From a virus, in the IMG/VR virus record IMGVR_UViG_3300028769_000027, positions 1-36,086 of that record: a stretch of DNA of 36,086 bases; one strand, given 5' to 3'. The notes below the pieces were generated by a model. It saw nothing but the letters and a program-made list of their open reading frames with translations. It made no database searches and was not told the DNA's origin. Position numbers and translations under genes: made by a program. This document shows, in pieces, positions 27,761 to 31,941 of the stretch. Every line of letters begins with the position of its first letter. Position 1 is the stretch's first letter.

Positions 27761-27766
27761 TATAAT
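27758..27766 (+). promoter_or_regulatory. extended -10 promoter overlapping ninG stop
   Basis: TGATATAAT at 27758-27766 provides TGn plus TATAAT; the TGA is also the ninG stop. No clear -35. It would give a leader of nearly 190 bases ahead of the HTH gene at 27961. Confidence 0.5.
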
Positions 27767-27822: not shown

Positions 27823-27960
27823 GCAACTCTAAAAAGAAGTAGTTAGCACTTGACGGTCTCTCTCTACTTCTTTTTAGAGTTGCTAATTAGAGAGACCGTC
27901 AATCCCTCACAAAACAATTCCCAACTACTTAAAAGACTGACAATCGCAAAGGTTGAATGT
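27823..27960 (+). ncRNA. structured leader RNA, copy 1
   Basis: A perfect 20-bp inverted repeat (27823-27842 with 27864-27883) encloses a loop whose TTGACGGTCTCTCT (27850-27863) is perfectly complementary to AGAGAGACCGTCAA at 27889-27902. The two helices interlock and are too close to coexist fully, so they are probably alternative states. GAAGTAG/CTACTTC at the stem top, then CTCAC, AAA, ACAAT, CTTAAAA and ATCG..AAAGGT, recur with the same spacing in copy 2 (28465-28586). Leads into the HTH gene at 27961. Confidence 0.6.
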
Positions 27961-28164
27961 ATGTCACAAAACAACAGCATTTTAGAATACCTAAAACAAG
28001 GTAATTCCATAACAGCTTTAGAGGCTTTAAAATCGTTTCAATGTATGAGATTAGCTTCACGCATGAACGATATTAAAAACATGGGCTACGAAGTATGCTC
28101 ACAAATGGTAGAAATTTCTAGCGGTAAACGTGTTGCTTCTTATTGGTTAAGAAGTGTGAAATGA
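27961..28164 (+). CDS. HTH_39-type winged-helix protein
   Basis: 67 aa from ATG 27961, after AAAGG; an upstream in-frame TTG at 27850 would start inside the leader stem and is rejected. ILEYLKQGNSITALEALKSFQCMRLASRMNDIKNMGYEV matches the small HTH_39 domain (PF14090) common in phages, a winged helix with conserved C-R-L-A-S-R and GYE. Probably a transcription regulator, possibly acting at its own leader. Coupled by ATGA to the next gene. Confidence 0.8.
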   Translation: MSQNNSILEYLKQGNSITALEALKSFQCMRLASRMNDIKNMGYEVCSQMVEISSGKRVASYWLRSVK

Positions 28165-28403
28165 AAAAACTTACATATAAACAAGCCAGTAAAATAATTA
28201 ATAGCTTCGGAGGATTTGAAAAATTTGTTGAACTAAAGTTAAGTGAATTAAATATTAAAAAAAAATGTTTAGAAGACTTATTAATGGATGAAGTTCCAGA
28301 ATATGTTTTTATAAATTCTATAATTAACATTGTTGGGATAAATTATAAATTAAAAAAAATAGATGATGATATTTTATTTTTTAACAACCTATTAAAAAAA
28401 TAA
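28161..28403 (+). CDS. hypothetical helical protein
   Basis: 80 aa from ATG 28161 overlapping the previous stop (ATGA). Lys- and Ile-rich, mostly helical, ending in DDDILFFNNLLKK. No family recognised. It forms a two-gene unit with the HTH gene between the two copies of the leader RNA. Confidence 0.65.
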   Translation: MKKLTYKQASKIINSFGGFEKFVELKLSELNIKKKCLEDLLMDEVPEYVFINSIINIVGINYKLKKIDDDILFFNNLLKK

Positions 28404-28418
28404 CAATGAAAAAACTAA

Positions 28419-28447
28419 TAGACACTTCATAAAATTTACGCTATAAT
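28419..28447 (+). promoter_or_regulatory. sigma-70-like promoter of leader copy 2
   Basis: TAGACA (28419-28424) and TATAAT (28442-28447) with a 17-base spacer, only one base off consensus in total. Transcription should start about 28454, a short distance before the leader stem. Confidence 0.75.
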
Positions 28448-28464
28448 CAAAATAAGCTTTTAAC

Positions 28465-28586
28465 AAGTAGCATTACTCTTTGGTCGGACGGTGCTACTTT
28501 TTAAGACGCTTGAGTGAAAGTCCGACCGCACACTCTCACTAAATACAATCCTCTTAAAACCAATTAGCGGTATCGAAAGGTACAAA
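28465..28586 (+). ncRNA. structured leader RNA, copy 2 (possible kissing loop)
   Basis: AAGTAGCA (28465-28472) pairs with TGCTACTT (28492-28499), then TTTTA follows. The loop holds GGTCGGAC (28482-28489), perfectly complementary to GTCCGACC at 28520-28527, which itself sits in the loop of a GAGTG/CACTC hairpin (28512-28516, 28531-28535). The loops could kiss. The first stem plus T run could also terminate. Compared with copy 1, the P1 element, CTCAC, ACAAT, CTTAAAA and AAAGGT blocks keep their spacing (69/70 and 42/41 bases), while the loop pair differs but stays complementary. Confidence 0.65.
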
Positions 28587-29099
28587 ATGTTTGCTTGCAT
28601 AGATAGGAAATTAGATCAGAGAAGGCTTTATTTTTCTATTGATAAATTACTAAGAATTAGTGATGATAAAAAAATTGGTGGAATATATGTAATTTTTAAA
28701 GATGACATATGTTTATATGTTGGACAATCTAAAAATATAGCTAGCAGATTATCGACTCATTTATGTGGAAAATATAAAAATGTTGACAAAATTTTAATAT
28801 TTGAAGGGTATGAAGAAATAGAGGACTTAATACCGTCCGAAAAATGTGCTATTCAAATATTTAAACCAATTGAAAACATATTGGCTGATTATACTGAAAA
28901 AATAAACATGAAAAATATTATTTTTCAATTACATGATTTTTTATTAGGTGCTCCGCTATTTGAAGATTACCAATTGATAATAAATGACAGTAATATCTTA
29001 ATTTTTGATATTAATTTTAGTCTTGATTTAATAGACGAAAACAATAATAAAATACTTTCAAATGTTAAAAATGCGATTTTAGATGGTCGCTTATCATGA
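28587..29099 (+). CDS. GIY-YIG domain nuclease
   Basis: 170 aa. Residues 30-97 have the GIY-YIG fold: GGIYVIF (31-37), LYVGQSKNIASRLSTHL (43-59, with YVG replacing YIG, R54 and H58), E85 as likely catalytic Glu, and IFKPIEN (91-97). The C-terminal 70 residues are Asn/Asp/Ile-rich and unassigned. Could be a homing endonuclease or a defence/superinfection nuclease. It has its own promoter and leader, as an independent module would. Its stop overlaps the next start (ATGA). Confidence 0.8.
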   Translation: MFACIDRKLDQRRLYFSIDKLLRISDDKKIGGIYVIFKDDICLYVGQSKNIASRLSTHLCGKYKNVDKILIFEGYEEIEDLIPSEKCAIQIFKPIENILADYTEKINMKNIIFQLHDFLLGAPLFEDYQLIINDSNILIFDINFSLDLIDENNNKILSNVKNAILDGRLS

Positions 29100-29824
29100 G
29101 TATTAAATTTATGAACAGAGTATGGACAGATGAAAATTTAGAGCCTACCCAAAAATTAGTTTTACTGGCTATTTGTGACAATGCAAATGATGAGGGTTTA
29201 TGCTACCCATCTATTGATACTATTCAGCACAAAACAAGTCTTTCAAGACCAACTGTTATAAAAATAATTAATAAACTTGAAGAATTGCATATGCTTACAA
29301 AAACACAGAGGGCGAAAAAAAATGGTGGTAGATATTCTTCTTTATATTTAGTTTTTCCTGCAGAAACTTTTGAATTTTTAGATAGTGAATTTAAAGAAAA
29401 AATGAGCCAAAGTAAAACGGCTTTACTATATACCCAAAGTAAAGTGGGTTTACCACAAAACGACACCCAAAGTAAAGTGACTTTACCTAAACCATTACTT
29501 TCTTTATTTAATCATCACTTATTTATAGAATTATCTAATAAAGAAAGGGATTTATTTTTAGAATATATTTCTTTAAGAAAAACGCTTAAGTTAAAAACAA
29601 CTATGCAGATACAAAATAGGCTACTTGAAAAGTATTTTGAGTTTGGAAGAAATATAGAAGTTATTGAAAAAGCAATAATTTCAAATTGGAGAGATTTTTA
29701 CCAACCACCTTCTTGCAAGCCTACATACAAAAAGTCTTTAGCCGAAAGAAACCGTGAAGCGATGGACGAGTACGAACGAATAGCAAAGTATGGAAATGAT
29801 ATTATTACAGGAGAAATTGAATGA
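29096..29824 (+). CDS. replication initiation protein, HTH (O-like)
   Basis: 242 aa. N-terminal winged helix: MNRVWTDENLEPTQKLVLLAICDNANDEG and CYPSIDTIQHKTSLSRPTVIKIINKLEELHML, a pattern of phage replication initiators such as lambda O. The C-terminal half (FLEYISLRKTLKLKTTMQIQNRLLEKYFEFG) resembles primosome-type tails that load a helicase. No helicase or polymerase is encoded, so host DnaB is probably recruited. Overlaps its neighbours by 4 bases on each side. Confidence 0.8.
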   Translation: MSIKFMNRVWTDENLEPTQKLVLLAICDNANDEGLCYPSIDTIQHKTSLSRPTVIKIINKLEELHMLTKTQRAKKNGGRYSSLYLVFPAETFEFLDSEFKEKMSQSKTALLYTQSKVGLPQNDTQSKVTLPKPLLSLFNHHLFIELSNKERDLFLEYISLRKTLKLKTTMQIQNRLLEKYFEFGRNIEVIEKAIISNWRDFYQPPSCKPTYKKSLAERNREAMDEYERIAKYGNDIITGEIE

Positions 29825-30447
29825 AACCAATACTATTTAACACAGAGATGGTGAGAGCTATTTTAGATGGAAGAAAGACACAGACTAGACGAGTTTTTAC
29901 AAAAAAACAAGTTGAACTTTTTAAATATGCAATTATGGATGGAGAACTTAATAGCACATTGGAAGATTATAATAATGAGCATTGGCTTTGGGCTAAATAT
30001 AGAATAGGTGACATTCTATGGGTAAGGGAAACGTTTGTAGACGCTTTAAAATTTGGTTTTACATACGGAATTTATTACAAAGCAACAGATGAGCATATTA
30101 TTAAAGATAAGATGAAAGAGTGGGGAATCAAGTGGAAACCATCTATCCACATGCCAAAAGAAGCAGCGCGTATCTTCTTACGTGTAACGAATGTAAGAGT
30201 TGAAAGACTGCAAGATATAAGTGATGAAGATATACTCAAAGAAGGGATAATTGATTTAGAGTCATGGGTTTGCGGTGATATACCTGAATATCAATATTGT
30301 GTAACGATGAAATCTAAAAGATATGATAGCGCAGAAGAGGCATTTAAAGAGTTATGGAACTCAACCGCTAAAGAAAGCTATAAATGGGAAGATAACCCCT
30401 ATGTGTTTGTATATGAATTTGAAAAGGTAGATAAGCCATGCGACTAA
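29821..30447 (+). CDS. ASCH/PUA-like phage protein
   Basis: 208 aa. MKPILFNTEMVRAILDGRKTQTRRV, GDILWVRETFVDA and KPSIHMPKEAARIFLRVTNVRVERLQDISDEDIL, ending FVYEFEKV, are all diagnostic of a phage family with an ASCH-type RNA-binding fold. Role unclear; some are called morphogenesis-related without proof. Start overlaps the initiator stop (ATGA), stop overlaps the next gene by 10 bases. Confidence 0.85.
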   Translation: MKPILFNTEMVRAILDGRKTQTRRVFTKKQVELFKYAIMDGELNSTLEDYNNEHWLWAKYRIGDILWVRETFVDALKFGFTYGIYYKATDEHIIKDKMKEWGIKWKPSIHMPKEAARIFLRVTNVRVERLQDISDEDILKEGIIDLESWVCGDIPEYQYCVTMKSKRYDSAEEAFKELWNSTAKESYKWEDNPYVFVYEFEKVDKPCD

Positions 30448-31014: not shown

Positions 31015-31941
31015 ATGGGCAAAGAGTTAGGAATACCTTACATGGGAAGCAAAAGAAAATTATCTTCTAAAATTGTAGATTATATACTTTCAAAAAATCG
31101 TGATTGTAAATATGTTTATGATTTATTTGGCGGTGGAGGTGCGATTAGTTTTGAGTTTTTACAGCGTAAACAAATTAAAAAAATAGTTTACAATGAGTTA
31201 AACACTGGAATATGTGAGCTACTTAAAAAGATACAAAAATACGGAGTTACTAAAGACTTTTATAAATGGGTGAGCCGTGAAGAGTTTAATGCACATAAAA
31301 ACGATAATAATTGGTACGGTGGACTTTTAAAGACTTGTTGGAGTTTTGGAAATAATCAAAGGGATTATTTATTTGCCACTGATTTAGAAGAAGATAAAAG
31401 ATTGTTACATGAAATTGTAGTCAACAAATGTGATACCTCGAGACAACTTTTTAAAGACAAATTTGATTTATTTATAGATGGTTTTTACCTAAAAAATGAT
31501 GATATACAATTAAGAAGATTAGATGTTATGCAAGTAGTAAAAGCACAAATAGGACGATTTGACTTACAGCGGTTACAGCAGTTAGAGCAGTTAGAGCAGT
31601 TACAGCAGTTAGAGCAGTTAGAGCAGTTAGAGCAGTTAGAGATAAGTAATAAATCTGCATTTGATGTTATTATTAAAACACCAATAAGCGAAACAATCTT
31701 ATACCTAGACCCGCCATATTTAAACACTGCCAAGTATGCAGAAAAAATGTGTTATACAGAATTAATGGATTATATTTTAAAGAGTCCATATAAGATTTAT
31801 GTGAGTAGTTATGAGTTTGATTTGCCTTGCGTGTTTGAGCTTAATCATAGAAGTTCTTTAAGTGCTACAAATAACGCAAAAAAAGTAGTTGAAAAGTTAT
31901 TCTGCAATAGAGAAGAAAATAGTTATGGGAGCTTATTTTAA
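31015..31941 (+). CDS. dam: DNA adenine methyltransferase (D12 class) with Leu-Glu-Gln repeats
   Basis: 308 aa. Motif order is that of D12/Dam-type N6-adenine methylases: PYMGSKRKL (8-16), AdoMet loop DLFGGGGA (36-43), and catalytic DPPY (232-235) in ILYLDPPYLNTAKY. Between them, 184-209 is eight copies of a 9-base unit coding for LQQ/LEQ. It may protect phage DNA from host restriction. The repeat lies in the usual target-recognition part and would be easy to lengthen or shorten in frame. Its stop overlaps the next start (TAATG). Confidence 0.93.
   Translation: MGKELGIPYMGSKRKLSSKIVDYILSKNRDCKYVYDLFGGGGAISFEFLQRKQIKKIVYNELNTGICELLKKIQKYGVTKDFYKWVSREEFNAHKNDNNWYGGLLKTCWSFGNNQRDYLFATDLEEDKRLLHEIVVNKCDTSRQLFKDKFDLFIDGFYLKNDDIQLRRLDVMQVVKAQIGRFDLQRLQQLEQLEQLQQLEQLEQLEQLEISNKSAFDVIIKTPISETILYLDPPYLNTAKYAEKMCYTELMDYILKSPYKIYVSSYEFDLPCVFELNHRSSLSATNNAKKVVEKLFCNREENSYGSLF
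31564..31641 (+). repeat. 9-bp tandem repeat within methylase gene
   Basis: Unit TTA(C/G)AGCAG: eight full copies (first ends CGG) and a final six bases. The two codon variants alternate as Q and E. Since 9 is a multiple of three, changes in copy number keep the frame. Confidence 0.95.

Follow-up and report, generated by a model that had tools for sequence, protein, structure and literature searches.

Two segments of a phage genome, each placed directly before a gene, share a series of short motifs and differ in their loop sequences, and the question raised by this locus is whether they represent one type of regulatory RNA and in what way such an RNA would act. Only a few classical systems (P4, P1/P7) have provided examples of early phage genes regulated by RNA, and such regulators easily escape notice, since it is the complementarity pattern that is conserved while the pairing sequences themselves change rapidly. 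In the leader of phage P4, the CI RNA (seqB) pairs with seqA upstream and with seqC downstream and controls replication genes (PMC4825925), while C4 of phages P1 and P7 is a loop-complementary RNA aimed at the ribosome-binding-site region of the antirepressor mRNA, the pairing being phage-specific (PMC12197685). Translation of repZ, a gene of the IncI-alpha plasmid ColIb-P9, requires a pseudoknot to form ahead of the ribosome binding site (PMC8383071). Here, a complementarity pattern is shown in eight environmental phage records, where it is found without Rfam match and before antirepressor and replication genes.

Two leaders in the window

The analyzed stretch of DNA (hereafter, the window) is the 36,086-base IMG/VR virus record IMGVR_UViG_3300028769_000027, with the gene order Erf-like, YqaJ, SSB, NinG, HTH_39, GIY-YIG and O-like replication initiator; the leader features, the genes directly behind the leaders and the replication initiator gene lie on the plus strand. 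The first leader (W1) has a TATAAT box, TGATATAAT, at 27761-27766 as its probable promoter, followed by P0 (27780-27810, GGCAGT...ACTGCC), an additional 5′ hairpin between box and P1 similar to those of two other members of the family described below (G005a and G012). Hairpin P1 (27823-27883) contains a perfect 20-bp stem (27823-27842 with 27864-27883) and presents loop L1 (TTGACGGTCTCTCT, 27850-27863), of which L2 (AGAGAGACCGTCAA, 27889-27902) is the exact complement over 14 bp. Further downstream, the putative 3′ strand of a helix P3 (CTTAAAAGA, 27928-27936) could by analogy with other members pair with 27869-27877, one mismatch included, and GACTGAC (27935-27941), a weak candidate for the SD-proximal loop copy L1′, could pair with 27898-27904, again with one mismatch. 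Sequence and predicted fold place the SD (AAAGG, 27948-27952) within a hairpin CAATC-GCAAA-GGTTG (27941-27955), beyond which a 67-aa HTH_39 protein is encoded (27961-28164; Pfam PF14090, E 1.9e-12). An 80-codon open reading frame without Pfam or PHROGs match (28161-28403) lies between this gene and the second leader.

The second leader (W2) begins at about 28454, directly 3′ of the TATAAT box of a promoter-like site TAGACA-17-TATAAT (28419-28447), and its RNA, taken from this probable start to the base preceding ATG, would span 28454-28586. Hairpin P1 (28465-28499) has an inner stem pairing 28465-28472 with 28492-28499 (strands AAGTAGCA/TGCTACTT) and an outer strand, from 28454, which partly pairs with 28500-28511. 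Loop L1 (GGTCGGAC, 28482-28489) is complementary over 8 bp to L2 (GTCCGACC, 28520-28527), the latter carried by hairpin P2 (28512-28535) with the stem GAGTG (28512-28516) to CACTC (28531-28535). The 3′ strand of P3 (TCTTAAAA, 28552-28559) pairs with TTTTAAGA at 28499-28506, the L1′ candidate GCGGT (28567-28571) could pair with ACCGC at 28525-28529, and the SD (AAAGG, 28576-28580) is again found within a hairpin suggested by sequence and predicted fold (GTATC-GAAA-GGTAC, 28570-28583). The adjoining gene encodes a 170-aa GIY-YIG protein (28587-29099; Pfam PF01541, E 1.1e-6) and the next one an O-like replication initiator with HTH_36 (29096-29824; Pfam PF13730, PHROG 391). Beyond them, a 208-aa protein (29821-30447) matches PHROG 874, of unannotated function, very strongly and Pfam ASCH at best below threshold, and repeated Q-L-E/Q-Q-L-E units form a run, encoded at 31560-31660, in the protein of the Dam-like methyltransferase gene (31015-31941).

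A preliminary description of this DNA had presented both copies as structured leaders with shared motifs in the same order and at nearly the same spacing, which is confirmed: AAGTAG at 27837 (in the 20-bp stem), CTCAC at 27906 and AAAGGT at 27948 mark copy 1, CTCAC at 28535 and AAAGGT at 28576 mark copy 2, and the distances of 69/70 and 42/41 bases are correct. The loops indeed differ while each is complementary to its own partner, over 14 bp and 8 bp, and the Pfam matches agree with the HTH_39 and GIY-YIG genes that the copies were said to precede. Both had been located correctly, although the true leaders are longer than had been stated; the T run reported for them is present, yet it sits within a helix and is not a terminator tail. 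A terminator or attenuator reading of the AAGTAG/CTACTT stem with T run was rejected, this run being unconserved and internal to the helix, and a scan gave no terminator-like site near the window leaders, which would still leave room for factor-dependent termination. Among the shared motifs, CTTAAAA corresponds to the 3′ strand of the further possible helix P3 and AAAGGT to the SD; L1′, the competing helix P3 and the promoters had been overlooked. Scored by hairpin plus loop-partner energy, copy 1 reaches -36 and copy 2 -23 kcal/mol, and one of 100 first-order shuffles of the window has any site at or below -22 kcal/mol. Folding z-scores, in which the loop-partner pairing is ignored, are -4.9 for copy 1 and -1.6 for copy 2.

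A family with hypervariable kissing loops

The search with the HTH_39 protein led to a relative in another phage, 69% identical in the alignment, the leader of which has the same architecture and a third sequence pair, TCCTACGC and GCGTAGGA. Viral contigs were then scanned by pattern and whole records by structure, and with the members so obtained the family comprises 12 leaders in eight IMG/VR records, some of them fragments: W1 and W2 in the window and ten leaders in seven other phage records, namely G001 (3300020045_003819), G002a (3300026521_000280), G003a and G003b (3300032257_000076), G004a and G004b (3300011261_000032), G005a and G005b (3300033485_000049), G009 (3300032253_000026) and G012 (3300032253_000041). 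The window has only about two or three genes in common with any other leader-bearing record. Since exact patterns were used in the search, the family may be larger.

Each leader lies directly upstream of a start codon, and, counted from the 5′ base of P1 through this codon, its length is near-constant (130-150 nt). Eight of the 12 members have a TATAAT-like box, beginning 10-14 nt ahead of P1, which places the expected start of the RNA at or near P1. Hairpin P1 presents L1, and hairpin P2, closed by P3, presents L2; W1 is the most divergent member, with P2 not clear and L1′ mismatched. Throughout the family L2 is the exact complement of L1 over 7-14 nt, and the sequences of both differ almost everywhere between members. 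The mean energy of a leader's own L1:L2 duplex is -15.6 kcal/mol versus -4.0 for crossed pairs, a comparison independent of the structural alignment, although L1 and L2 themselves were picked by complementarity.

Direct MAFFT alignments put P1, P2 and P3 in wrong places, and for this reason sequences hand-cut or N-padded by structural register were used for the covariance model. In the resulting alignment of ten members, the preparation of which biases pair counts towards structure, 93% of pair cells are standard pairs, every one of the seven P1 and five P2 pairs shows double-sided changes, with G-U pairs among the compensatory changes, and the covariation score is 0.62 versus 0.23 for shuffled alignments and at most 0.24 in slid controls. 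Two checks proposed in the preliminary description, the search for further homologues with preserved pairing and that for covarying pairs, came out in favor of a structured RNA: ten further homologues retain the loop-partner pairing with different sequences, and P1 and P2 covary strongly. A particular case is the pair G003a and G004a: the 114 nt spanning P1 to P3 do not differ at all (L024:11579-11692 and L055:4760-4873 (minus)), against 54% identity in the 100 nt upstream, 73% in the remainder of the leader and 75% in the gene; apart from these two no identical leader copies occur among the members. The boundaries of this identity match the structure, suggesting either that the RNA is under strong selection or that precisely this piece has been exchanged.

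The covariance model built from ten members recovers those ten and G004a, scores W2 at only E 0.004, does not recover W1 and gave no additional match at E < 0.08 in the approximately 2.3 Mb of DNA searched; L019-L023, L051 and the G026 match (E 0.085) were judged to be chance or coding sequence. No family of Rfam 15 matches at gathering score, and two matches below it (E 2.5 and 3.7) were read as chance. A self-cleaving ribozyme or known riboswitch was set aside for want of any Rfam match; as to a riboswitch pocket, both loops are hypervariable and the bases invariant in the padded alignment fall mostly into helix strands, the SD and the start codon. The pattern scan of viral contigs for the GIY-YIG protein gave no relatives, and no relative was confirmed for the HTH_39 alignment in the genome-contig collection. 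Six matches to the leader DNA pattern in this collection, none of them combining promoter box, kissing loops and P2, were read as chance, and no bacterial genome in it was shown by the pattern scan to carry the leader. Comparison of leader DNA with isolate phages by blastn returned short chance matches only, and the search for trans targets, conducted with the leaders against the rest of the same genome, only scattered 12-mers. One hairpin at L237:12718-12850 (IMGVR_UViG_3300026521_000280), without P2 and the usual P3, was left out of the family; its loop TAGCCATTC is complementary to a downstream stretch, and it precedes ATGGCAAACAATAAAA.

The genes behind the leaders recur in type. HTH_39 is found twice (W1 and G001) and GIY-YIG twice (W2 and, as a truncated gene with sub-threshold match, G009), while AntA/AntB antirepressors with ORF6C domain occur three times (assigned through Pfam for G003b and G004b and through sequence resemblance for G012) and Rha with ORF6C once (G005b), placing AntA/AntB or Rha behind four of the 12 leaders. 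G005a precedes a replication-initiator-like gene with weak HTH_36 match, G003a and G004a the gene of an unannotated protein (about 147 aa) with a DUF6291 gene behind it, and G002a a 38-codon open reading frame. Several of these are core early phage genes (antirepressors, replication initiators), and the idea that the leaders tag mobile accessory modules, also raised at the outset, found no support. The best isolate matches of the antirepressor, Nitratiruptor phages (38% identity) and a Helicobacter prophage, suggest that the hosts are putatively Campylobacterota; in the Nitratiruptor phages with related antirepressor no such leader lies upstream of the genes checked, and none was seen by eye in the Helicobacter prophage.

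The SD-proximal element L1′ and the helices P1 and P3

A partial repeat of L1 occupies, in most members, the four bases that precede the SD motif GAAAG: GCTG for L1 GCTGAAGT, GTCG for GTCGAAT, TCCT for TCCTACGC, GTCT for GTCTAGGCTT, TGTC for TGTCATGCTT and TACC for ACTACCAATTCC. The L1′ of G004b retains three bases, and in W2 and G005a the sequence GCGGT, complementary to ACCGC at the 3′ end of L2, stands a few nucleotides before the SD. The complementarity of L2 to L1′ extends over about 4-6 bp at a site just upstream of the SD and is much poorer than that to L1. When own L2:L1′ pairs were compared with permuted ones, the observed sum was reached in 0, 6 and 65 of 50,000 permutations for three member sets, which are all the sets tried and were picked after the pattern had been noticed; taken singly, members give a weak signal (for W1, G005b and G009, P is only 0.1-0.24 versus shuffles). 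Because of this post hoc choice and the weakness of single members, the case for the L1 repeat beside the SD as a real feature of the leaders is considered good but not final. Judging from these complementarities, L2 could pair with either L1 or L1′.

The second potential competition concerns the stems. P3 uses the strand that could otherwise form the 3′ base strand of P1, and its variable position stays standard (G-C, A-U, U-A), whereas the base of P1 has there G-U wobbles or mismatches. For nine of ten members the energies of the isolated hairpins are about 3-7 kcal/mol better for the full P1 than for P3; in G003b the two are equal. Alternation between P1 and P3 appears plausible from the sequences.

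Proposed control of translation and competing explanations

That these elements are structured cis leaders may be regarded as nearly certain, and the initial suggestion of an undescribed phage cis-regulatory RNA is supported by the ten homologues, the covariation of P1 and P2 and the absence of an Rfam match. We propose that the leader would act as a structured 5′ untranslated region controlling the downstream phage gene in cis. The RNA, starting at or near P1, would fold into P1 with loop L1 and a P2/P3 hairpin with loop L2, and both would be joined by a kissing helix of 7-14 bp, the sequence of which is presumably free to drift as long as the pairing holds. L1 is transcribed first and pairs better, and by default L1:L2 would form, leaving the SD free and the gene expressed; should L1 become occupied or displaced, as by a protein or by L2 hairpins on other transcripts, L2 would pair beside the SD and hinder ribosome loading. 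Differing L1/L2 sequences would prevent cross-talk between tandem leaders in one phage, and the competition between P1 and P3 might set folding order or timing. It is inferred that L1 and the site beside the SD both draw on L2 and that the outcome governs translation; the direction of control, its trigger and any trans action are to be understood as equally conditional. The sign of control could be the reverse, since in repZ translation is activated by a pseudoknot lying ahead of the ribosome binding site (PMC8383071).

The fixed orientation between promoter-like box and start codon in 12 members from eight records speaks for such a switch; against it, isolated hairpins mostly favor P1 over P3 and L1′ pairs far worse than L1. 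Chances that the leaders are a translational switch, working in the proposed or in the opposite direction, are put at about even. Somewhat more tentative is the complete proposition, according to which L1, L2 and L1′ drift freely and swap partners to switch translation of early genes, with tandem leaders made orthogonal by their loop codes, and which would define a new class of phage gene-control RNA.

In layout the leaders look like seqA-CI-seqC of phage P4 and like plasmid repZ, membership of neither being claimed. As in P4 CI, a leader segment in the middle finds complements on both sides, one upstream and one downstream, L2:L1′ being short here; P4, however, uses premature transcription termination via a processed RNA in the lysogen, whereas in the present leaders, compared at the sequence level, the downstream site touches the SD and the loop sequences are many and unrelated. 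C4 (RF01695) is comparable in its complementary loop sequences, and the antirepressor genes behind four of the 12 leaders resemble its target, but it has another fold, L1 and L2 kissing here within one leader, and its covariance model matches none of the eight records at E ≤ 10. Because of this null result and of three family searches for lysogeny genes, in which phage integrase, ParA and resolvase (PF00589, PF13614, PF00239) had no match in the eight records, fragments included, the leaders are assigned to neither P4 CI nor C4 systems in spite of the resemblance. In repZ a loop pairs with a site upstream of the replication gene's ribosome binding site in competition with another pairing (PMC8383071); the competitor there is an opposite-strand antisense RNA and here L1 of the same leader, and the feature of repZ type, 4-6 bp of L2 complementarity just upstream of the SD, is significant across members and weak singly. 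IsrK of Gifsy-1 is likewise a prophage leader with alternative structures, where RNA pairing opens the ribosome binding site, yet it is a terminated small RNA acting in trans, and the part of PMC4825925 drawn on describes no hypervariable kissing-loop family for it.

By analogy with P4 CI and P1 C4, a stable P2/P3 small RNA might instead pair with L1 and L1′ of other transcript copies and stop their expression. This would provide feedback or superinfection immunity, to the specificity of which hypervariable pairing sequences would be suited; the order of elements is that of P4, where CI pairs with seqA upstream and seqC downstream (PMC4825925), and the downstream genes are alike in kind, with antirepressors corresponding to C4 (PMC12197685) and replication genes to P4. 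Such antisense action in trans is nevertheless unlikely given that integrase, ParA and resolvase gave no match in the eight records, some of them fragments, that the C4 model is silent and that the window leaders have no terminator-like site near them, and the intramolecular L1:L2 pairing should outcompete it. A structure beginning at the probable start site, with an additional 5′ hairpin in some members, might also serve as a 5′-end stabilizer or standby structure, the kissing hairpins blocking 5′ exonucleolytic decay or keeping the ribosome binding site open with no switching; sequence drift with retained pairing is just what a purely structural role predicts, and the tisB mRNA has a 5′ pseudoknot serving translation (PMC7708055). 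The SD-proximal copy of L1, the competing P3 and the near-constant distance to the start codon would then be left unexplained, which makes this role rather improbable.

The put RNA of phage HK022 is a two-hairpin RNA at the start of an early transcript which lets RNA polymerase pass terminators. Action of the leaders on RNA polymerase in a similar manner would fit their location at the start of early transcription units and the tandem copies in one unit; with the link between loop and SD unaccounted for and leaders that also directly precede single start codons, antitermination is highly improbable. Least credible, and barely so, is a DNA-level site for recombination, replication or mobility, with inverted repeats marking mobile modules: the repeats do exist in DNA, and genes of the same types stand behind the leader again in phages that otherwise differ, but its orientation towards promoter box and start codon is fixed, the compensatory changes include G-U pairs, the SD is linked to the loops, and identical copies are limited to G003a/G004a.

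The proposed switching of translation in cis makes the leader design testable, as complementary loops can be swapped and the outcome predicted; if the loops prove interchangeable and orthogonal, this RNA would be a useful model for kissing-loop switches. Apart from the family, two genes resembling freestanding homing endonucleases were noticed in IMGVR_UViG_3300033485_000049 (L243:8001-8900 (minus) and L058:2153-2900 (minus)), one GIY-YIG-like by eye and one with an AP2 match below cut-off, and before each of them lies a pseudoknot-like leader with a hairpin loop pairing the SD itself (TCCCCCGATC/GATCGGGGG and CCTCCACG/CGTGGAGG).
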